Virus record (IMG/VR): IMGVR_UViG_3300034118_001268
Coordinates: 1-56,286 of that record
Origin: a virus
Length of the DNA: 56,286 bases
Direction: 5' to 3' (one strand)
The position numbers and the translations under genes are program-made. Under the pieces are notes generated by a model, which saw nothing but the letters and a program-made list of their open reading frames with translations, had not been told where the DNA came from and searched no databases. This document shows positions 14 through 21,943 of this stretch, piece by piece; the first letter of the stretch is position 1, and each line of letters begins with the position of its first letter.

Positions 14-160
14 GTGAAGAACCAGAAGATGATGAAGAAGCCAATGAAGGATGCCGACGACTACGGCAAAAAAGGCTCGAACGGTGACAAGGGCAAAAAA
101 ATGCCAGCCAACAAATTGATGATGGCTGGCGGTCCGAAATCGAAGAGGAAGGATTGTTAG
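14..160 (+). CDS. Small lysine-rich basic protein, unknown function
   Basis: A 48-residue reading frame starts at GTG14 with a perfect AGGAG Shine-Dalgarno sequence at 2-6, seven bases upstream. The product is very basic (Lys-Lys pairs throughout, several Met) and has no recognisable domain. It lies on the late strand and ends at TAG160, overlapping by four bases the 3' end of the convergent dCMP deaminase gene. If the window is circular it would directly follow and partly overlap the outer spanin gene as the last gene of the late operon. The strong ribosome binding site is the main argument for it. A composition-driven spurious frame is the alternative. Confidence 0.5.
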   Translation: MKNQKMMKKPMKDADDYGKKGSNGDKGKKMPANKLMMAGGPKSKRKDC

Positions 161-174
161 GAGCCATCTCCTAA
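157..174. terminator. Hairpin at the convergent junction
   Basis: A perfect inverted repeat TTAGGAG (157-163), loop CCAT, CTCCTAA (168-174) sits exactly where the plus-strand small gene and the minus-strand dCMP deaminase gene converge; both stop codons lie in or beside it. No U-tract follows on either strand, so it is only a weak candidate bidirectional terminator or RNA-end structure. Confidence 0.3.
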
Positions 175-732
175 CTGTTCCCAATCGCGGCCAGAAGAGA
201 TCCACAATTTTCTGGCCGCGGGATGGGGGTACTCATCCTTGTATATGATCCTCCGACAACTTGTATTGAGAAGCAGTTTGGTGCAGGCAATGCACGGACT
301 TGCGGTCACATACGCAGTGTCGATGCTGTGAACATCCTTACATTGGAGTAGAGCATTTTGCTCGGCGTGGATTGCTTGACACGAGTCAAGGTCCGTGCCA
401 GACTTTGACGTGGCTCCAAGACAGCGGTGCGGGAAATACAAGCCGTCTGGTCCCAGTCTTTGACCATTAGCCACAAGGCAGTCGTGAGACACGTCGTATT
501 GGACAGCCGACCAATCCAAATGTTTCTGGTTCAGGTGGTCCCCAATGTCCACCTTTACCTGTTCATTGCAGTGCGGTTGGCCAGACGCGACGCCGTTATA
601 TCCCGTGGCAATTACGTGGCCTCTAGCGTTTAGTAGGACGCAACCAACCTGCCTTCTAAAACAAGTGGCTCTGCGCGCAGTCGTGATTGCCAGGTCCATG
701 GCCCAACGATCCCGTGTCGGTCTCACTTCCAT
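157..732 (-). CDS. dCMP deaminase (zinc-dependent cytidine deaminase fold)
   Basis: Converts dCMP to dUMP in the cytoplasm. Visible motifs are the zinc/catalytic HAE (residues 122-124 counted from ATG732) with a following QNALLQC helix, and PCIAC (Cys147 and Cys150) supplying the other zinc ligands. Between the first strands and HAE lies an insertion of about 40 residues rich in Cys and His, as in the larger phage (T4-like) dCMP deaminases. Length 191 aa is normal for that group. ATG732 is preferred over GTG750 because a GGGAG sequence lies eight bases upstream; it gives a 10-base overlap with the end of the thymidylate-synthase-fold gene, so the two are translationally coupled. It is the last gene of the leftward nucleotide/modification operon and could supply dUMP to a hydroxymethylase or methylase. 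Confidence 0.9.
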   Translation of the reverse strand: MEVRPTRDRWAMDLAITTARRATCFRRQVGCVLLNARGHVIATGYNGVASGQPHCNEQVKVDIGDHLNQKHLDWSAVQYDVSHDCLVANGQRLGPDGLYFPHRCLGATSKSGTDLDSCQAIHAEQNALLQCKDVHSIDTAYVTASPCIACTKLLLNTSCRRIIYKDEYPHPAARKLWISSGRDWEQLGDGS

Positions 733-1607
733 TCTGACTTCTCCCACCACCGAATGTCGTCGCCCTTAGACGACTCTCTGAGAGACTTCAAGAATTGCAA
801 AACGTGGGGCAATCCTTGTCTCTCCATTGGGGAAAAGCATAAATTCCCCGGGACTGGCTTTGTGGGGGACAGTTGACCAAGTTCCCACAAACATTTCTGA
901 GCTGGTTCAAAGTCTTGTTCATACAGATGGCTGCTCGCGGCCGTCAAATACAGAGCGCCCGGAGTCACCAATCTTTCATTGTTAGGCGCTTCGTTTCGAA
1001 TGTGGTTCACGATGTGTTTTGTGTTCAATATGCAACACACGGCAAACGCCAGCATCGAGAAGTTGAACACGTCGTAGGGGAGTCCGAGCCAAACATCAGA
1101 AGATCTCATGAAGACGTGAAGGTTCAACTTGTCACCACGAATTTTGAAATCGAAGGCCACCGTGCACGGAATATCCTTCGACTTTTCGGGGTTTGCCCTC
1201 CACGTGGTCAGTACGGCCTGGCGAGTATCTCTGTCGGTGGACAATTTTTCTACGACGTATCCCAATTGTTCAATGATCCTTGGTCCGTAGGCTCCATAGA
1301 ACCTATGGCCATCATCGCTAAATTGAGCAATGTGTTTGTTCCACGGGGTGATACCCTCGACAGTGTCGTCACCCGACAAAATCCAAAAGGCCTCGGCAGC
1401 CATGAATTTGTAGCTGAGCCTTCTGCTGGGAAAAGTCAACACCGGGTAGTTCATGTTGACTGCGACGGTGTGTTGCGGCAATTCCTTGGTCAATCTCCCT
1501 CTGGGAGATACCTCAAACCCCTCCTCTAGGATTTTCCTGACAACGGTGAACCACTGAAAATCGAGAGTGTTGAACCACTCACTCGACTGCTTCGGCACGT
1601 TATTCAT
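723..1607 (-). CDS. Thymidylate-synthase-fold dCMP hydroxymethylase-like enzyme
   Basis: Transfers a one-carbon unit from methylenetetrahydrofolate to C5 of a pyrimidine deoxynucleotide. From ATG1607 the protein has 294 aa. It has the catalytic PCT cysteine (Cys148), the RSSD phosphate-binding loop (168-171), an AEAFWILSG segment with the conserved Glu and an FYGAYG segment. In thymidylate synthase the LGLPFN motif carries the Asn that recognises the uracil ring; here it reads LGLPYD with Asp179. Asp at this position is the hallmark of dCMP-acting members such as T4 gp42 (known Cys148/Asp179), and the Cys-to-Asp spacing is the same. The gene therefore probably makes 5-hydroxymethyl-dCMP or 5-methyl-dCMP; plain thymidylate synthase is less likely. 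ATG1607 is chosen over an upstream start because it overlaps the kinase stop by eight bases. Confidence 0.85.
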   Translation of the reverse strand: MNNVPKQSSEWFNTLDFQWFTVVRKILEEGFEVSPRGRLTKELPQHTVAVNMNYPVLTFPSRRLSYKFMAAEAFWILSGDDTVEGITPWNKHIAQFSDDGHRFYGAYGPRIIEQLGYVVEKLSTDRDTRQAVLTTWRANPEKSKDIPCTVAFDFKIRGDKLNLHVFMRSSDVWLGLPYDVFNFSMLAFAVCCILNTKHIVNHIRNEAPNNERLVTPGALYLTAASSHLYEQDFEPAQKCLWELGQLSPTKPVPGNLCFSPMERQGLPHVLQFLKSLRESSKGDDIRWWEKSEWK

Positions 1608-2223
1608 AGCTTGAAGCCCTCTTCGCAAGGTTGAACATTTGAAGACACGTGTCAAGATTGTTGACAAATACGTTCGGAGGACGCAAACTGTCAATTGCTC
1701 TTGGCGACCACGGTTTCATGGTCGTGTAATCATACCCGACCACGATGTTTGATGAGTTGTCCACAATTTGACTGAATTTGGAGAATTTATAGGCGAAGTA
1801 GACTTCCGACATCTGTTCTTCGCTTGAAAGCATTTCCTGACTTCGCCTGGAATTGAAAGTCTCCAGAACTTTTGCAAGAGGCGGGAGGCACATGATCATC
1901 ACAGCGCCACACATATTCCCCAGAATAGTCAAGTCTGCCGCTCGCTTTCCGAGACGATCCTCGCCATTCCGGTATGCATCACCATAGATCTTCTCGCTGT
2001 GCCACGAGCGATCAAGAACAATGTCTTGACAACCGTGCAATGCCGGAAGAATGGACTCGACGTAATGTCTTCCAATTTTGACTTCGCCTTTATAGGCGCC
2101 GTGGTGGATATACTTTGCGCCAGTCAATTCAGCAAATTGCTGGGCAGCAGTTGTCTTCCCACCACCGTCCGGGCCTTCGAAGATGGTCAATTTCGAAGTC
2201 GTGAATTTGTCCTTGTCCATCAT
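1600..2223 (-). CDS. Deoxynucleoside monophosphate kinase (thymidylate-kinase-like P-loop)
   Basis: Phosphorylates a dNMP. The P-loop FEGPDGGGKTT lies at residues 15-25 and an LDRSWHSEKIYGD segment corresponds to the DR-Y region of thymidylate kinases. Length 207 aa is usual. ATG2223 is used: it overlaps the TGA of the preceding MazG-type gene as ATGA, with AGGGAC upstream; the GTG further upstream would only add a tail inside that gene. In phages with modified bases a dedicated kinase lifts the modified monophosphate towards the triphosphate, and its place directly upstream of the hydroxymethylase-like gene fits this. A P-loop kinase acting on DNA-borne hydroxymethyl pyrimidine is the alternative, but the helical domain typical of those enzymes is not fused here. 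Confidence 0.82.
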   Translation of the reverse strand: MMDKDKFTTSKLTIFEGPDGGGKTTAAQQFAELTGAKYIHHGAYKGEVKIGRHYVESILPALHGCQDIVLDRSWHSEKIYGDAYRNGEDRLGKRAADLTILGNMCGAVMIMCLPPLAKVLETFNSRRSQEMLSSEEQMSEVYFAYKFSKFSQIVDNSSNIVVGYDYTTMKPWSPRAIDSLRPPNVFVNNLDTCLQMFNLAKRASSYE

Positions 2224-2717
2224 GCGTTGTCCCTGTCGAGGTGGATGAGATCGTCGAGACACCGACTTTCGTTGGAGACGTCACCGTCTGGGAAGAATTC
2301 TTCAACTCTATATCCAGCCTCCGTAAGGATGGCAAGAGTTTGGGGCCCCACCCAACCGGGCGGCTTCGTGACGTCGACCAGATTTCCGCGATGGGTTGTG
2401 CCAGGCACCTTGCGCATATTTGCCTCGTGGACGTCGTTCCACAATTTCGACCAGACCGACGTGAGGCCCAACATGACGGCCGAACCTTTGAGAACGTAGA
2501 CGGCATCGACCAAGGCGTCGGCCATTAGTGCCATGTCTTGAGCTGCCGCTGCCTTGGCAAATTCTTCGGAAGCTTCCTCAAAGTGGAATTTCACCCTTTC
2601 CAACATTTTCCTGCGGGTCAGATGGGTGATGTTTTCCGGAGCCAGCTGTCCAAATTTCAAATGAAATTCTTGGACGGCGTTGATTTCCGGGTCGGCATGG
2701 ACGGTGGGTTTGGTCAC
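2220..2717 (-). CDS. MazG-superfamily nucleoside triphosphate pyrophosphohydrolase
   Basis: All-alpha NTP pyrophosphatase. The metal-binding signature EEASEEF (about residues 47-53) followed by ADALVDAVYVLKG (about 67-79) matches the E-x-x-E ... D-x-x-D arrangement of the MazG / phosphoribosyl-ATP pyrophosphohydrolase superfamily. The C-terminal third (about 55 aa) is extra and unassigned. It starts at GTG2717, preceded by the extended GCTGAGGAG ribosome binding site shared by many early operons, although no promoter lies in the 40-base gap. It is coupled by ATGA to the dNMP kinase. In this operon it may hydrolyse dCTP or dUTP, supplying monophosphate to the hydroxymethylase-like enzyme and excluding the unmodified nucleotide from DNA, as phage dCTPases do; the substrate is an inference. 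Confidence 0.75.
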   Translation of the reverse strand: MTKPTVHADPEINAVQEFHLKFGQLAPENITHLTRRKMLERVKFHFEEASEEFAKAAAAQDMALMADALVDAVYVLKGSAVMLGLTSVWSKLWNDVHEANMRKVPGTTHRGNLVDVTKPPGWVGPQTLAILTEAGYRVEEFFPDGDVSNESRCLDDLIHLDRDNA

Positions 2718-2757: not shown

Positions 2758-3693
2758 CTACGGCTTGTCGAATGCTGACATATCCCCCCAATCAACATTC
2801 GACTTCAATTCAGACGACCCTTCTCTCACTGCAATAGTGTCAGGAGGTTCGGCTGCAACGTTCCAAAACCATGCGTTGTTGGAAGCGTGTTCACGTATGA
2901 AGCTCCAAGCCTTTGCGTCATACGATAGGACTGACGGAAAGGGCGGTGCTTCATCTTGCTTGACACTCTGGGTGAATGGCAAAGGATGGCTGTAAATCGA
3001 GGCTCTGCCTTTTTCCCCATCGTGAATGTTTCGAGCTACGGCAACTGCAAAGACCTTGGCTTTGGGCCAAGCCAACTGAAGGCCTCGACTTAGCACGCCG
3101 GTGCTAATCACAGTCCAGAATTCCTTGATCTTCATATAGTCACCAATCTCGCAATCCGCCACCAGTCGAGCCGTCTTTGCGATCCCAGCCACGGCCGCAG
3201 GCACGTCGAGACCGAGAGGAAAGAAGGTGTAGCCGTGATCCTCAGCAAACTTCCGTGCCATCCGTTGCAGATTGGGCATGGCGGCTACGCGCACAAACCT
3301 CAAATCTGCCCAAAGATTGTAGGCGGTCAATTGATGGTGCGAAGGTTTCGCAGCGGCTGGAGAGAAGAGAATGAGTTTGCGTCCGGTGTCTGAACATAAC
3401 TTGGCCAACGACATCGGCGCCCACCCAACTCTTGGGGCGACATAAACAATGGTCTTGGTCTTCTTGTATTCCGGTTGGAACAGGGCGGCTGATCCGGCTC
3501 TAGCCTTGGTTCCGAACCCCATCATGTCATCACGAACAACGTAGATCGTCCGTTTGGAGTCCAACTTGACCCTATCAACCCGCGGGACGGGCAACGGATC
3601 TTCCCAATCCCGAACTAGATCCATAAGACGCGACTCTCCCATCTGATCCAGCTCTTTGTGGACCGAAGACGAGGTGTGGTTCGTGTGCGTCAT
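2758..3693 (-). CDS. PLP-dependent enzyme, fold type II (PALP family)
   Basis: A 311-aa protein of the tryptophan synthase beta / ACC deaminase type. After VVRDDMMGFGTKARAG, Lys63 stands where the PLP-binding lysine of the family lies (compare GGNKxRK). YVAPRVGWAPMSLAKLC corresponds to the Asn-loop/helix region that follows, and STGVLSRGLQLAWPKAKVFAVAVAR near residue 205 matches the phosphate-binding glycine-rich turn, helix and strand, here degenerate. Such enzymes act on serine-, threonine- or cysteine-like amino acids. The reading frame overlaps its upstream neighbour as ATGA. Operon context suggests it makes or trims an amino-acid-derived group for DNA modification. No phage homologue can be named from sequence alone, so the reaction is unknown. 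Confidence 0.65.
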   Translation of the reverse strand: MTHTNHTSSSVHKELDQMGESRLMDLVRDWEDPLPVPRVDRVKLDSKRTIYVVRDDMMGFGTKARAGSAALFQPEYKKTKTIVYVAPRVGWAPMSLAKLCSDTGRKLILFSPAAAKPSHHQLTAYNLWADLRFVRVAAMPNLQRMARKFAEDHGYTFFPLGLDVPAAVAGIAKTARLVADCEIGDYMKIKEFWTVISTGVLSRGLQLAWPKAKVFAVAVARNIHDGEKGRASIYSHPLPFTQSVKQDEAPPFPSVLSYDAKAWSFIREHASNNAWFWNVAAEPPDTIAVREGSSELKSNVDWGDMSAFDKP

Positions 3694-4832
3694 TGATAGT
3701 TCCCTTCGGGTTGCCGCCCTTTGAAATAGCGGAGGCTTGAGTTGTTGAACAGTCCAGCTTCGCGCACGTGGTCGAAGCCCTTTTTAGGAACGTAGTTTTC
3801 CAACCATCTGATCAGGTCACATCCAGGGCTGGCGTCTTCGACGTCCATGGGAAGGGTCCCGGTCAAATTGCTGAACAATCTGGTTCCACGGTCAAAGAAT
3901 TCTTGGGAATTCATACGGACGGTTGGGCGCAAACAGACTGACAAGGCTTCTTGAGCGTTCTTTCCGTGGTAGCAATCTGAAGTAGCATCCACCAAGTGGG
4001 GCAGATACTCAGCCATGTCCATGACCCACGCAGTCAAAACAAACTTGAACTGCTTGCAGCCACGTTTGCGTTGATAGTCCAAAACTTGATCCACGGTTTC
4101 TTTGATCCCTGCCGGCCCCTTTCCGTATCGACATCTCTGCTCAAACCAAAACCACACGTCGTCCACCAGTTGAGGGGCGATCTTGACCAGATACTCAATT
4201 CCTGCCAGGCGGAAGAACGGATCCTTCAACTTATTGAATGGCGGGATTTGGTTTCCAATGCTTGTGAACATCGTCATGTGTCGGTTGTAACTGATCCACG
4301 AAGACATTGGTGGGATGCCAAGACTGTCGCTGACCATTAGAGGCACAATCGTGTTTCGCCAACCATGATCATGCTCGAAACTGGCGCCTGAACCTGTGAC
4401 TCGGTGGACCAGACAGACATAGAGCCACGCCCGGTCGTCACCCCTAAATCTGGGATAGTCCCAACCTTTGAGACGGTTGTTGACGATTTTGGGAGCTTGG
4501 TCCCCGTATCGCAGCTGTTCGAGAACATTTGAAAAGCCTGCAAAGCGGCGTCTCACAGTGTCATAGATCGGAATGTTGTCCTGAAGATCACAACCAGACT
4601 TGAAATTTTCAGGCACGTATCCGAGGTTCTTTTCCTGAAGACTTTTCGCCCTATGGTAGTAGTGGTAGGCTTCGACAAAGTACGGAGTGGGCTGCAAATC
4701 GTAAGTGGAAGCCAATTGAATTGCGTGAGAAGCTTCACGAAGACGCCTCTGCCACACTCCGGCCTTGGAAGGGATAACCAGGTCCTTCGACCTGGCTTCA
4801 TCTTCTACGTCCTTCAGATGCTGCTTGACCAT
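3690..4832 (-). CDS. Helical aGPT-PPlase / amino-acid:DNA-transferase-like protein (tentative)
   Basis: A 380-aa mostly helical protein. Segments resemble the order seen in the alpha-glutamyl/putrescinyl-thymine pyrophosphorylase and 5-hmdU-DNA-kinase helical-domain families: an aromatic helix with HRAKSLQEK (residues 60-68), then DNIPIYDTVRRRFAGFSNVLEQLR (85-108, like the family's rF-x-NV-x-R helix), an LVHRVTG helix (141-147), and near the end an aromatic helix FKFVLTAWVMDM then GKNAQEAL (290-297), like the family's GPGA-x-x-GL turn. These matches are weak and by eye. It starts at ATG4832, overlaps the SGNH-like gene by 19 bases and is coupled to the PLP enzyme. If correct it would attach a moiety to hydroxymethylated bases in DNA. 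Otherwise it is an unknown protein. Confidence 0.4.
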   Translation of the reverse strand: MVKQHLKDVEDEARSKDLVIPSKAGVWQRRLREASHAIQLASTYDLQPTPYFVEAYHYYHRAKSLQEKNLGYVPENFKSGCDLQDNIPIYDTVRRRFAGFSNVLEQLRYGDQAPKIVNNRLKGWDYPRFRGDDRAWLYVCLVHRVTGSGASFEHDHGWRNTIVPLMVSDSLGIPPMSSWISYNRHMTMFTSIGNQIPPFNKLKDPFFRLAGIEYLVKIAPQLVDDVWFWFEQRCRYGKGPAGIKETVDQVLDYQRKRGCKQFKFVLTAWVMDMAEYLPHLVDATSDCYHGKNAQEALSVCLRPTVRMNSQEFFDRGTRLFSNLTGTLPMDVEDASPGCDLIRWLENYVPKKGFDHVREAGLFNNSSLRYFKGRQPEGNYQ

Positions 4833-5818
4833 GATCCACCTTTCCAGATGTGTGTATACTGGGACGGACGAATGTGGACCGACTGGGGTTTCTCCATGAC
4901 GTCGAAGTCCAATTCGCCGGTGCCGTTCCAGAAATGACTAGGGTGACGGTAGACCGAGATGCCGTCCGTCGGCCACTTGCCCATCTCGTCCGCCCACCAG
5001 TCCCGAAGGTTGGCTCGGTCAGCCCACGAGCCGAAGAACGGAGTCCCCTTATACCAACCAGTCTTCGGGAGCTTTCGCGACTCGTTCTCAATGGGCAACG
5101 GCTCGGCCACGATGATCCGCTGCTTCCGATATTCTTTGACCAAATCTTTAAGCTGGCTGCGGTACTCCTTCAACAGCTCCCTGCCTGAGTTTTGACCGTG
5201 GCGTAGCACGTGGTGCCTGATGTCAATGTTGCCAAAATAGAACGTGATGCTCTGAATGGTCGGACACCAAGCTTGGTTGACCAAACTGGAAAGGCCGGTG
5301 TTGAGGGCACCATGCAATGTGAGACCGTCATTTCTGAAGATCCTCGACCCCTTCGTGTATAGGGACAGAGCATGACTGTCCCCGACCACGAGGTTCTTAG
5401 GCTTCGTCGTCGGCCACCTCTGTCCCACACTCTTGGCTATAACCCGGTAAAGACCCCGTTGATCAAACTCGGGCGCTAAAAGTCTAGCTCCCAATAGTTC
5501 ATCGTAAGGGGGCATGGTGCGATCCATGCTGAATAAACCGTAGCCAACCAATTCTCCAACTGCCTGGAATTTTCGAACCCTTTCATAGAGTTCCGGTTGT
5601 GGCCCTCCCGGGAAATTCAAAGCGTCTTTGAATTCCATTCCATGATAGACGTAGACAGTATCTCCGGGCTTGACGATGTCTGTCACACGGTCCATGTGGC
5701 TGGTTGTAATCAGCTTTGCGCCAATCTCTTCAGCCCAATACAAGGCCCATCCAGCCCTGTGACTAACCTCTATTCGGTCAGTCACAGGGGTCAGAGGGCT
5801 GAAAAGGTACAGCCCCAT
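4814..5818 (-). CDS. SGNH/GDSL-type hydrolase-like protein
   Basis: A 334-aa protein of two parts. Residues 1 to about 135 form an alpha/beta region (KPGDTVYVYHGMEF) of unknown type, possibly nucleotide- or sugar-binding. From residue 140, NLVVGDSHALSLY gives a GDSH block I with Ser148 as the expected nucleophile, and ITFYFGNIDIRHH gives a G-x-N block III (Asn197). A C-terminal acidic/His stretch could hold the D-x-x-H block, but it is not clear. Family members are esterases or acyltransferases. It begins at ATG5818 with AGGAA upstream, four bases after the preceding gene. In the modification operon it could transfer or remove an acyl group on a base adduct; this role is inferred only from neighbours. 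Confidence 0.5.
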   Translation of the reverse strand: MGLYLFSPLTPVTDRIEVSHRAGWALYWAEEIGAKLITTSHMDRVTDIVKPGDTVYVYHGMEFKDALNFPGGPQPELYERVRKFQAVGELVGYGLFSMDRTMPPYDELLGARLLAPEFDQRGLYRVIAKSVGQRWPTTKPKNLVVGDSHALSLYTKGSRIFRNDGLTLHGALNTGLSSLVNQAWCPTIQSITFYFGNIDIRHHVLRHGQNSGRELLKEYRSQLKDLVKEYRKQRIIVAEPLPIENESRKLPKTGWYKGTPFFGSWADRANLRDWWADEMGKWPTDGISVYRHPSHFWNGTGELDFDVMEKPQSVHIRPSQYTHIWKGGSWSSSI

Positions 5819-5821
5819 GTG

Positions 5822-6625
5822 TCAGTTCCTGGCCGAAGCTTCGGCCTTCGAGCCGGGCTTTGCAGGCCTGACGACCTTGGAAGTCTTGGCCAACCCAGGC
5901 TTGTTGGCCTGAGGTGCAGACTTCGCGCCGGCGCCACCAGTGGATTTCGCGCCGATCGGCTCAGGCGGGTTCATGCCCTGCTTCCTCAGGTGGTTCCGGT
6001 TCCAGGCAATGTAGCTGCGCTTGGAGTCATCAAGATCGAACTCCTTCTGCACTTCGGCAAAAATCTGGTCATCGGACATAGTCCCCTTCATGATCAAATC
6101 GCAGATCATGCTGGACACAGACGGGCGCTTCACCTTCGGCTCCTTGGCAGCCTTCGGTTCCTTGGCAGCCTTCGGCTCAGCAACCTTGGCAGCCTTCGGC
6201 TCGGCAACCTTGGCAGCCTTCGGTTCGGCAACCTTGGACTTGACGCCAGTGATAACTTTGCCGGGTGCTTTCGCCACACCCTTCTTCACACTTGCGGTAC
6301 TGGTAGCCATAACGATATTTTCCTTCTCATATGGTTTGAGGATGCGCCCCAAAAAATTCAGGGCCTCGGGCGTTGCGCCGAGCTGTTGGGCGTGCTCACG
6401 GTAGATCTTGGCGATGGCTTCAGGATCATCTTGTGTGCGCGCAAACTTGGTTTCGAATTCCTTTGTCGGCATCGAAACAACCGTCACCCACGGGTAGTCT
6501 TCCTCCCCAATCTGAGTGTCGGTCAAAAAGCTTGTGGTCGAACCTGTGTTCGCCACCACAATGACGGCAGGAAGGCCGTCCGCCACGGTTCCTTTTTTCG
6601 GGGCGTAGATGCGATATTCGATCAT
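5822..6625 (-). CDS. Lys/Ala-repeat protein with C-terminal phage domain (paralogue 1)
   Basis: A 267-aa protein from ATG6625, two bases after the preceding stop. Residues 1 to about 105 are a globular domain of unknown family. Then comes a low-complexity linker of KVAEPKAA repeats (encoded by tandem 24-bp repeats), then a domain of about 50 residues beginning RPSVSSMICDLIMKGTMSD and ending in a YIAWNRNHLRKQGM motif, then a basic Lys/Ala/Gly tail. The 50-residue domain recurs in two other genes of this window (6885-7367 and 21479-21907), each after a Lys-rich linker. Helical prediction by eye and the basic context suggest nucleic-acid binding. An internal ATG near 6310 could give a shorter form lacking the first domain. 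Confidence 0.75.
   Translation of the reverse strand: MIEYRIYAPKKGTVADGLPAVIVVANTGSTTSFLTDTQIGEEDYPWVTVVSMPTKEFETKFARTQDDPEAIAKIYREHAQQLGATPEALNFLGRILKPYEKENIVMATSTASVKKGVAKAPGKVITGVKSKVAEPKAAKVAEPKAAKVAEPKAAKEPKAAKEPKVKRPSVSSMICDLIMKGTMSDDQIFAEVQKEFDLDDSKRSYIAWNRNHLRKQGMNPPEPIGAKSTGGAGAKSAPQANKPGLAKTSKVVRPAKPGSKAEASARN
6146..6235 (-). repeat. Tandem 24-bp repeats encoding a KVAEPKAA linker
   Basis: Three 24-bp units (6164-6187, 6188-6211, 6212-6235) differ at one or two positions, and an 18-bp shortened unit lies at 6146-6163. They encode the Lys/Ala/Glu/Pro linker of the surrounding gene. In-frame expansion and contraction is the likely source of length variation. Confidence 0.9.
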
Positions 6626-6626
6626 C

Positions 6627-6812
6627 TTACGCTGCTCCCCAATTGTCAAGGAGGGCGATCGACGTCTTTGAGACGTCTCTGATTTGGATGGCTTTGATTT
6701 TCTCATTGCGCACTTTCAACGCAAGTTTTTCAAAATCAGCCATGGTCATGGTTCCGGGCACGAGGAAAGATCCAACGTCTCCAGACGTAAAGACAACTCG
6801 GATGTAGATCAT
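6627..6812 (-). CDS. Small protein, first gene of the modification operon
   Basis: A 61-aa protein starting MIYIRVVFTSGDVGSFLVPG, with a beta-strand-rich start and a helical middle; no family recognised. The upstream GTG at 6824 overlaps the GAGGAG ribosome binding site itself, so ATG6812 is taken as the start. It lies directly behind an early promoter (6848-6876) and stops two bases before the next ATG, so it is the first gene of the operon that runs to the dCMP deaminase. Confidence 0.7.
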   Translation of the reverse strand: MIYIRVVFTSGDVGSFLVPGTMTMADFEKLALKVRNEKIKAIQIRDVSKTSIALLDNWGAA

Positions 6813-6884: not shown

Positions 6885-7367
6885 TCAGAGCAGGCCCTTC
6901 TTTTTTAGCTCCTCTCTATACCAATCAACACTCGTTCTCCTGAACGTGGGAAACTCTTTAAGGACCTTCTCAAAGATTTCGTCGTCGGAAATTTCCCTCG
7001 CCAAAATCAACTCTCTGGTCACGCTGGCCATAGACCTCTTCTTCTCCGCCTTTGGCCTAGGTTCCGATGTCGTCTGGCGCTTTTCGCCTTTCGAAGAAGG
7101 TTGTGGCTTTTTACCACTCACAATATCTTGGAGAAACGCTTCAGCCTCCTGTATGGAGGAGAATATGATTGGATCGCCAAAGCCGTCACCTTTCGTAGGG
7201 TGTCTAAAAGTCGCCTTCCAATCAGCGAGGTGGCTGTTATCTAGTTTCACCAAGTCGATCACTGTGAAGGATCCCTTCCTGACTCCACCGATCTCGAGAA
7301 TTTGGTATCGGTCGTGGAGCAGCGGGGATGAGTACCCACCATCTCCAGCTTTTTGGAGGATCAACAT
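6885..7367 (-). CDS. Protein with Lys-rich linker and C-terminal phage domain (paralogue 2)
   Basis: A 160-aa protein from ATG7367, preceded by GGGGGAG. The N-terminal ~85 residues form a beta-rich domain of unknown type that ends in an IIFSSIQEAEAFLQDIVSG helix. A charged Lys/Pro/Ser linker follows, then the same ~50-residue domain as in 5822-6625 and 21479-21907 (SMASVTRELILAREISDDEIFEKV ... WYREELKKKGLL). It is last in a three-gene operon behind promoter P2 and ends just upstream of promoter P1. Confidence 0.75.
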   Translation of the reverse strand: MLILQKAGDGGYSSPLLHDRYQILEIGGVRKGSFTVIDLVKLDNSHLADWKATFRHPTKGDGFGDPIIFSSIQEAEAFLQDIVSGKKPQPSSKGEKRQTTSEPRPKAEKKRSMASVTRELILAREISDDEIFEKVLKEFPTFRRTSVDWYREELKKKGLL

Positions 7368-7368
7368 T

Positions 7369-7587
7369 TTAATCTCCCCCACGCCCGAGGTCTTCGTAGA
7401 CTGACGACTTTCTCGTCCCCTCTTCGACCTTTTTGAAACTGTTGAAGCTCAGCATATTGGGTCCACGCACGGCGCGGAAGCACCACGGTTCGTGGAGAGT
7501 GACTGTGAACGATCCGGGCTCGTCCTCGTCAATAGCCATGATCCATGGCCGTTGACGGATCAAATAGGTCAAGCGTTTGTTGGCCAT
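7369..7587 (-). CDS. Hypothetical small protein
   Basis: A 72-aa protein, MANKRLTYLIRQRPWIMAID at the N-terminus, with beta-like segments around FTVTLHEPWCF. No family recognised. It sits four bases after the preceding gene and one base before the next ATG, in the P2 operon. The tight spacing and regular start support it as real. Confidence 0.7.
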   Translation of the reverse strand: MANKRLTYLIRQRPWIMAIDEDEPGSFTVTLHEPWCFRAVRGPNMLSFNSFKKVEEGTRKSSVYEDLGRGGD

Positions 7588-21478: not shown

Positions 21479-21907
21479 TTACGCGGCCACCGACTTGGCA
21501 ATGAGACCCTTGCGAACCATCATGGAGCGGTTCCAAGCAGGGTAATACTTCTTGGAGTCGTCCATGTTGAACTGGACCTTGACGTCATCCCAGATCTCGG
21601 CATTGGTCTTGCCAGCAGAGATCAAAGATTGGATCGTGCCAGACACGGAAGCCTTGCGATCGGCCTTTGCGGCAGACTTGGCAGGCTTGGCAGGCTTGGC
21701 AGCATTCTTCGCAGCCGCGGCCTTGGCGGTGGCAACGATCGCGAGGACGCGCTTGATGCCGGTCGGACGATCGGTAAACTTCTTGATCGTGCCAATGCCA
21801 AGCTTTTGGGCAAGGACGTTATAGACAGAGGCCAGTTCGGCGCCGCTCATCAGCTCGATCTGGGCTTCGGTCAGATTTTCAATCTGTTGGTTGGTGAAGG
21901 TACGCAT
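21479..21907 (-). CDS. Lys/Ala-linker protein with C-terminal phage domain (paralogue 3)
   Basis: A 142-aa protein. The N-terminal helical domain (NQQIENLTEAQIELMSGAEL... YNVLAQKLGI) resembles small proteins of phage replication regions. A KNAAKPAKPAKSAAKADRK linker follows, then the ~50-residue domain shared with 5822-6625 and 6885-7367 (KASVSGTIQSLISAGKTNAE ... YYPAWNRSMMVRKGLI). The basic linker suggests DNA or RNA contact. It is the first gene behind promoter P6. Confidence 0.75.
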   Translation of the reverse strand: MRTFTNQQIENLTEAQIELMSGAELASVYNVLAQKLGIGTIKKFTDRPTGIKRVLAIVATAKAAAAKNAAKPAKPAKSAAKADRKASVSGTIQSLISAGKTNAEIWDDVKVQFNMDDSKKYYPAWNRSMMVRKGLIAKSVAA

Positions 21908-21943
21908 CTTTCAATCTCCTCAGCAGGGGTTGTTGATGAAATG

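Follow-up and report, generated by a model that had tools for sequence, protein, structure and literature searches.

Amino-acid-type hypermodification of pyrimidines is already known for thymidine. In Salmonella phage ViI, which makes 5-(2-aminoethoxy)methyl-deoxyuridine (dU), a hydroxymethyl pyrimidine receives an amino acid, a pyridoxal phosphate (PLP) enzyme then acts on it, and no radical S-adenosylmethionine (SAM) step is needed. The cluster of Pseudomonas phage M6 consists of gp51 (amino acid:DNA transferase, ADDT), gp52 (PLP enzyme), gp53 (radical SAM protein), gp54 (5-hydroxymethyldeoxyuridine (5-hmdU) DNA kinase), and gp55 (HMUDK_hel). Lee and colleagues reportedly found in 2022 that 5-hmdU acquires amino acids, which PLP-dependent decarboxylases and other enzymes then trim. 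A route that starts from hmdU and makes use of a DNA kinase and of alkylamine transferases has been described (PMC6449724). In this study, we analyzed a viral DNA stretch of 56,286 nucleotides (IMG/VR virus record IMGVR_UViG_3300034118_001268, positions 1 to 56,286; hereafter the window), in which three overlapping open reading frames (ORFs) read on the minus strand encode an SGNH-type protein (S), a helical protein (H), and a PLP enzyme. We propose that these genes probably form a cassette for the post-replicative hypermodification of 5-hydroxymethylcytosine (hmC) in DNA, the cytosine counterpart of the M6 and ViI pathways.

The window resembles M6 in that the gene for the helical transferase is directly followed by that for a homologous PLP enzyme (phrog_7093), and a thymidylate synthase (TS)-like hydroxymethylase and a putative dCMP deaminase are encoded in the genome. 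Compared with M6, however, it has an Asp (dCMP-type) hydroxymethylase and an additional protein, S, whereas the P-loop 5-hmdU DNA kinase (PF18748) and a radical SAM match are missing and H lies outside the ADDT profile. Of the marks of the M6/ViI thymidine pathway, the dUMP-type Asn and PF18748 are thus absent, and a PLP enzyme of the gp52 family beside the transferase is present. ViI differs in acting on hmdU with a PF18748 kinase, and no homology could be detected between its PLP-like protein Vi01_182 and the window enzyme (E 0.07). With the MetaGPA hmC carbamoyltransferase phages (PMC8670742) and the glucosyl-hmC of T4, the window shares an Asp-type TS homologue that makes hmC, which is then derivatised in DNA, but the attaching enzymes there are a carbamoyltransferase and glucosyltransferases. 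Aeromonas phages 44RR2.8t/31 and 25 have S in common with the window, and neither H nor the window-type PLP enzyme was seen in the stretch examined. In the searchable literature, outside which most subscription papers and preprints lie, we found no amino-acid-type pathway for cytosine and none with an SGNH partner.

Conservation of the S-H-PLP cassette

The ORFs for S and H were found exactly where the earlier note had placed them, with the 19-base overlap it had given; H and the PLP gene overlap by 4 bases, and the ATGA that was said to couple them is seen at 3693-3690, common to the end of H and the start of the PLP gene. A Shine-Dalgarno-like stretch lies 5' of each start (AGGAA for S, AAAGGTGGA for H, and GAAGGGA for the PLP gene). 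Relatives of H in IMG/VR numbered 4 at first, then 16, and then 206 with a wider alignment, and more than 590 relatives of S were found. In the loci of the first relatives, the order S-H-PLP, followed by kinase, TS, and deaminase genes, is held down to 41-54% identity. Because homologues of all three proteins occur in the same order at this identity (L007/L008), and at lower identity in the wider survey, we regard S, H, and the PLP gene as real genes rather than chance ORFs.

The viral-contig locus lists comprise the top 80 loci ranked by similarity and hold near-duplicates, and cluster counts are therefore given beside locus counts. Among the loci found with H in the IMG/VR survey, S is adjacent upstream in 66 of 73 and nearby in another 6 (72/73 together), and the PLP gene directly follows H in 56 of 70. 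When H proteins were clustered at 65% identity, S accompanied 21/21 and the PLP enzyme 16/21 clusters. Thus, the co-occurrence of the three genes elsewhere, which the earlier note had named as a check, is found. Moreover, S and H are one ORF in two loci (L017 and L020), and these fusions strengthen the suggestion, made in the earlier note, of one complex or of consecutive steps on DNA; we infer that S and H form a complex. The cassette looks common and widespread in environmental phages.

Structural assignment of H, S, and the PLP enzyme

H had no match in Pfam or PHROG, and its searches against PDB and by tblastn against 50,697 phage records, where no match was obtained, were empty or at chance level. 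An AlphaFold2 model was built from 13 homologues (pLDDT 83, pTM 0.84). When it was compared with BFVD by Foldseek, the top matches were three H-like proteins, one of them labelled amino acid:DNA transferase by UniProt; the matches include A0A6J5L8T5 (E 3e-14) and the amino acid:DNA transferase A0A6J5LCY1 (E 1.4e-3, probability 1.00). The matches after these included two aGPT-PPlase clade 1 proteins (probabilities 0.96 and 0.84) and were followed by noise, and 'Amino acid:DNA transferase' and 'aGPT-PPlase clade 1' were the only families named at a probability above 0.6. Foldseek found no relative in PDB, so a DNA-glycosylase origin of H is not supported. The predicted fold of H is that of the amino acid:DNA transferase/aGPT-PPlase/HMUDK_hel superfamily, outside formal profile membership, and H probably works like its members. 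The motifs noticed earlier around 97-108 and at 290-297 are present and conserved, namely RR(F/Y)AGFSNVLE around 95-108 and GKNA at 290-293, with G290 and N292 kept in every one of 22 divergent members; TGSGASF, FTSxGNQIPxF, AxVMDxAEY, GxN, ED, and CD are conserved elsewhere. The low-confidence parts of the model include parts of the TGSGASF and FTSxGNQIPxF loops, which may become ordered on substrate. In L175 (103-1095) and 11 other loci, another helical protein is encoded near S/H; it is a distant H paralogue (hhalign probability 90, E 2e-6) and had no match in Pfam or PHROG.

S matched phrog_13881 (E 4e-51) and, below the family cut-off, PF19040 (E 9e-4). In its AlphaFold2 model (pLDDT 86), the C-terminal ~200 residues resemble SGNH esterases, including 6xpg (E 5.6e-6) and platelet-activating factor (PAF) acetylhydrolases; of the 28 PDB matches at E<=0.001, nearly all are SGNH/GDSL-type esterases, with target TM scores of about 0.5-0.66 for the best of them. 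The motifs are GDSH146-149, GN196-197 (GNID196-199), and His315. In 30 divergent members, of which the others are 25-46% identical to the window protein, GDSH, I198, D199, R201, H203, and H315 are invariant and N197 is nearly so. GDSH and GNID had been read as SGNH blocks, and both their conservation and the domain found by Foldseek bear this out. With the predicted fold and a conserved Ser148/Asn197/His315 at the catalytic positions, S is assigned to the SGNH proteins on both counts. The Asp of the SGNH block V (DxxH) is not present three residues before His315, where Q, K, or R is mostly found, and a conserved Glu309 lies six residues before this His. The N-terminal alpha/beta domain has conserved SH, YHGME, and GG motifs and matched no family. 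The Ser-Asn-His site may perform ester chemistry on the hydroxymethyl or on an attached group, and this is the weakest step of our proposal.

The window PLP enzyme matched PALP (E 1e-4) and phrog_7093 (E 2.4e-33), the family of M6 gp52 (E 2e-159). In direct comparison with gp52, the hidden Markov model gave E 3e-14 and hhalign a probability of 97.7 (E 1.5e-12), and K63, the presumed PLP lysine, is unchanged across 13 homologues. By these profile comparisons, the enzyme is a homologue of gp52 of the M6 thymidine-hypermodification pathway. Since the ADDT gene of M6, gp51, lies directly upstream of gp52, H occupies the ADDT slot here. Decarboxylation would be expected of the PLP enzyme because of the reported trimming of installed amino acids mentioned above. 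No radical SAM protein was matched in the window, and therefore an M6-type rearrangement is not expected. PLP homologues of 32-38% identity were also observed in Erythrobacter phage R6L (L003:7932-8762) and Microcystis phage Mae-JY30 (L004:7989-8702), where they are annotated as DNA modification methylase. That of Mae-JY30 adjoins ParB/sulfiredoxin genes, neither record has a TS-like match, and the two seem to represent another PLP-based system.

Target base and nucleotide supply genes

The TS-like neighbours at S/H loci have Asp at the position of E. coli TS N177 in 92/92 resolved cases (26/26 clusters at 70% identity), as does the window protein. The association with TS-like Asp enzymes that the earlier note had proposed to look for is therefore present. 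Phages 44RR and 25 have Asn in their ordinary TS and Asp in a second, gp42-type enzyme; M6 gp58 has Asn in the equivalent stretch, as judged by eye. The change of Asn177 to Asp makes dCMP rather than dUMP the substrate, and an Asp here is a mark of contigs whose cytosines are modified (PMC8670742). Because all resolved TS-like neighbours have Asp, the target base would be cytosine, and the presence of hmC in the phage DNA is strongly suggested.

Pyrophosphohydrolase, P-loop kinase-like, TS-like, and dCMP deaminase-like genes lie downstream of S-H-PLP in the window (Table 1). The family of the kinase-like protein resembles M6 gp54 by profile (hhalign probability 96, which may be generic). In L007 (9975-10970), and probably in L008 (9913-10890), the kinase has a C-terminal uracil-DNA glycosylase (UDG)-like domain (PF03167 E 0.0015 in L007), a fusion which hints that the kinase may act on DNA bases. 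The commonest extra neighbour of S/H is an all-alpha dUTPase_2-type protein (L110:3853-4281 and 53 other loci), a possible dCTPase/dUTPase. In addition, a glycosyltransferase (GT)-like protein (phrog_1574) occurs a few kb from S/H in L156 (2893-3729) and 19 other loci, where it may serve sugar addition or be unrelated.

Table 1. The S-H-PLP cassette and the nucleotide genes downstream of it in the window
Gene or product	Position	Strand	Description
S	4814..5818	(-)	334 aa; N-terminal ~135-aa alpha/beta domain and C-terminal domain of predicted SGNH fold
H	3690..4832	(-)	380 aa, all-helical; predicted amino acid:DNA transferase / aGPT-PPlase-like fold
PLP	2758..3693	(-)	311 aa; fold-type II PLP enzyme, M6 gp52 homologue
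PRA-PH/MazG-type nucleotide pyrophosphohydrolase, candidate for dCTP/dUTP clean-up	2220..2717	(-)	PF01503 E 1.7e-8; phrog_671
P-loop dNMP-kinase-like protein, which may phosphorylate hm-dCMP or hmC in DNA	1600..2262	(-)	Thymidylate_kin weak; phrog_761 E 2e-13
TS-like dCMP hydroxymethylase candidate, LPYDV	723..1649	(-)	PF00303 E 2.7e-21
dCMP deaminase-like protein	157..750	(-)	PF00383 E 2e-19; phrog_174 E 3e-38

A sister cassette and the Aeromonas phages

A search led by the S protein of 44RR revealed a second arrangement, in which S is accompanied by a homologue of myo-inositol-phosphate synthase (MIPS; PF01658 E 2.5e-8), a small HAD-like protein (recognised by eye), and an HMUDK_hel protein (PF18723 E 2e-15 in L026). 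It was seen in about 45 distinct loci (L301:5896-10568, L316, L324, L025, L026, L027, and others). Among 132 distinct S loci, H is present in 74, the inositol/HMUDK_hel set in 45, and both in none (Fisher p 7e-24, a value inflated by near-duplicates; the zero is what counts). The PLP enzyme occurs in 61/74 H-bearing S loci and 0/45 inositol/HMUDK_hel loci, and the TS-like enzymes seen in the latter have Asp too; kinase-like genes numbered 0 in these latter loci. S is the constant part, and the helical enzyme and supply genes swap (H and PLP, or HMUDK_hel and MIPS). The gene content of the sister cassette suggests an inositol-derived cytosine modification. PF18724, expected in S-bearing records, was found in none of them by a search that gave no control match, though M6 gp51 matched it elsewhere.

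Phages 44RR, 31, and 25 have gene 42 (dCMP hydroxymethylase) but no homologues of glucosyltransferase genes (Petrov et al. 2010, PMC2993671), and the fate of their hmC was left open by that review of the T4 family. S is encoded by ORF233c in 44RR2.8t/31 and by ORF225c in 25; identity to window S is 31% both for the N-terminal part of the 44RR protein and for that of phage 25. In 44RR2.8t, the ORF234c-233c region (L002:6387-10367) comprises an SSF sodium:solute symporter gene beside an S-HMUDK_hel fusion, and the symporter possibly imports inositol or a sugar for the modification. The C-terminal half of ORF233c was considered as H itself and rejected, being HMUDK_hel-like. In phage 25 (L033:2755-6026), S accompanies a UDP-galactopyranose mutase and a GT-like protein (phrog_14998), which in Erwinia phage FBB1 likewise adjoins a mutase; this set is a candidate for furanose modification of hmC.

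Proposed pathway and alternative explanations

The pathway that we propose would begin with the Asp-type TS homologue, which would form hm-dCMP. The products of the kinase-like and pyrophosphohydrolase/deaminase genes would feed hm-dCTP and drain dCTP, and we strongly infer that the polymerase inserts hmC. Activation of the hydroxymethyl group in DNA would follow, for which the P-loop kinase and S itself are the two candidates. H, whose fold is predicted, would be held close to S, the constant partner of the helical transferase, and would exchange the activated oxygen for a free amino acid. Finally, the PLP enzyme would act in place on the attached amino acid, most likely by decarboxylation given its homology to M6 gp52, to yield an aminoalkyl cytosine. 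Ester chemistry by S as the means of activating the hydroxyl is a tentative element of this scheme and less likely than not. A broader view, which we consider unlikely, is that a general machinery for cytosine hypermodification is built around S, in which H and PLP would add an amino-acid-derived group, HMUDK_hel and MIPS (or the Aeromonas SSF symporter) would add an inositol-derived one, and ester activation by the SGNH serine would replace the pyrophosphate-making DNA kinase.

Several observations weigh against the proposed pathway. PF18748, which was detected in the M6 and ViI controls, is lacking from 23/23 S-bearing records, and therefore no known enzyme accounts for the activation step. 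The fold of H agrees moderately with those of named members other than H-like ones (TM 0.39-0.50 by query length), and neither window H nor any member of two alignments matched PF18724 (ADDT) or PF18723 (HMUDK_hel). In hhalign comparisons of H with ADDT and HMUDK_hel, the E values of 0.05 and 0.035 were not significant, and so the homology of H rests on its fold; the class B helical protein likewise gave no significant match to H, and ADDT and HMUDK_hel are also unlinked to each other (E 0.03). The faint likeness to aGPT-PPlase/HMUDK proteins that the earlier note had seen in H is thus recovered by structure in BFVD but not by sequence. Moreover, the PLP gene is absent beside 14 of 70 H genes, and in phage 25 no helical partner recognised by the HMUDK_hel or ADDT profile stands beside S.

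The last of these observations also enters a rival explanation, rather unlikely, that S acts as a decorator at a late stage, being an SGNH acyltransferase or esterase which caps or uncovers the distal end of the hmC adduct (an amine, inositol, or sugar), while H and PLP attach the group and the P-loop kinase activates it. The nearest folds of S, carbohydrate O-acetylesterases and PAF acetylhydrolases, would suit such a role, as would the position of the phage 25 protein beside a mutase/GT-like pair, and activation by the kinase would agree with the resemblance of its family to M6 gp54 and with the UDG-like fusion in L007. However, no other gene is as constant as S, and its fusion to the helical protein suits a core partner better than an enzyme for optional tailoring; general P-loop likeness may explain the profile link of the kinase, and an hm-dCMP kinase is required anyway.

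A glycosylated hmC is a still less probable product. S would then be an unusual sugar or cyclitol transferase and H only a DNA-binding or base-flipping partner, with PLP making an amino sugar or a small precursor. Relatives of S do accompany MIPS, a galE-like epimerase, UDP-galactopyranose mutase, or an SSF solute symporter, and a GT-like family lies near 20 loci, but MIPS and HMUDK_hel occur in 0/74 H loci, the PLP enzyme matches the fold-type II phage family of the amino-acid pathway rather than sugar aminotransferases, and the Foldseek matches of S include no nucleotide-sugar enzyme. It is very improbable that the three genes belong to host amino-acid or lipid auxiliary metabolism and stand beside nucleotide genes by chance: although single-gene annotations are generic (PALP, SGNH), the neighbouring TS-like enzymes are all of the Asp type, the families are found in hundreds of contigs with their link held across divergent clusters, and H has the predicted fold of a DNA-modification enzyme.

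For the hypermodification of hmC by S, H, and the PLP enzyme, the most likely purpose would be to hide phage DNA from bacterial defences, and the cassette could serve as a predictor of phages that resist restriction and Cas nucleases. For Aeromonas phages 44RR, 31, and 25, it offers a candidate answer to the question of whether their hmC receives an addition, and which one. Furthermore, S would be a new enzyme part, and amine handles on cytosine may be of use in biotechnology. The inositol-type sister cassette is the most novel lead.

Other proteins of the window

Outside the cassette, three minus-strand proteins of the window (5822-6706, 6885-7382, and 21482-21910) have one C-terminal domain in common. 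The first two match phrog_34102, and EPKAAKVA repeats are found in the protein at 5822-6706.

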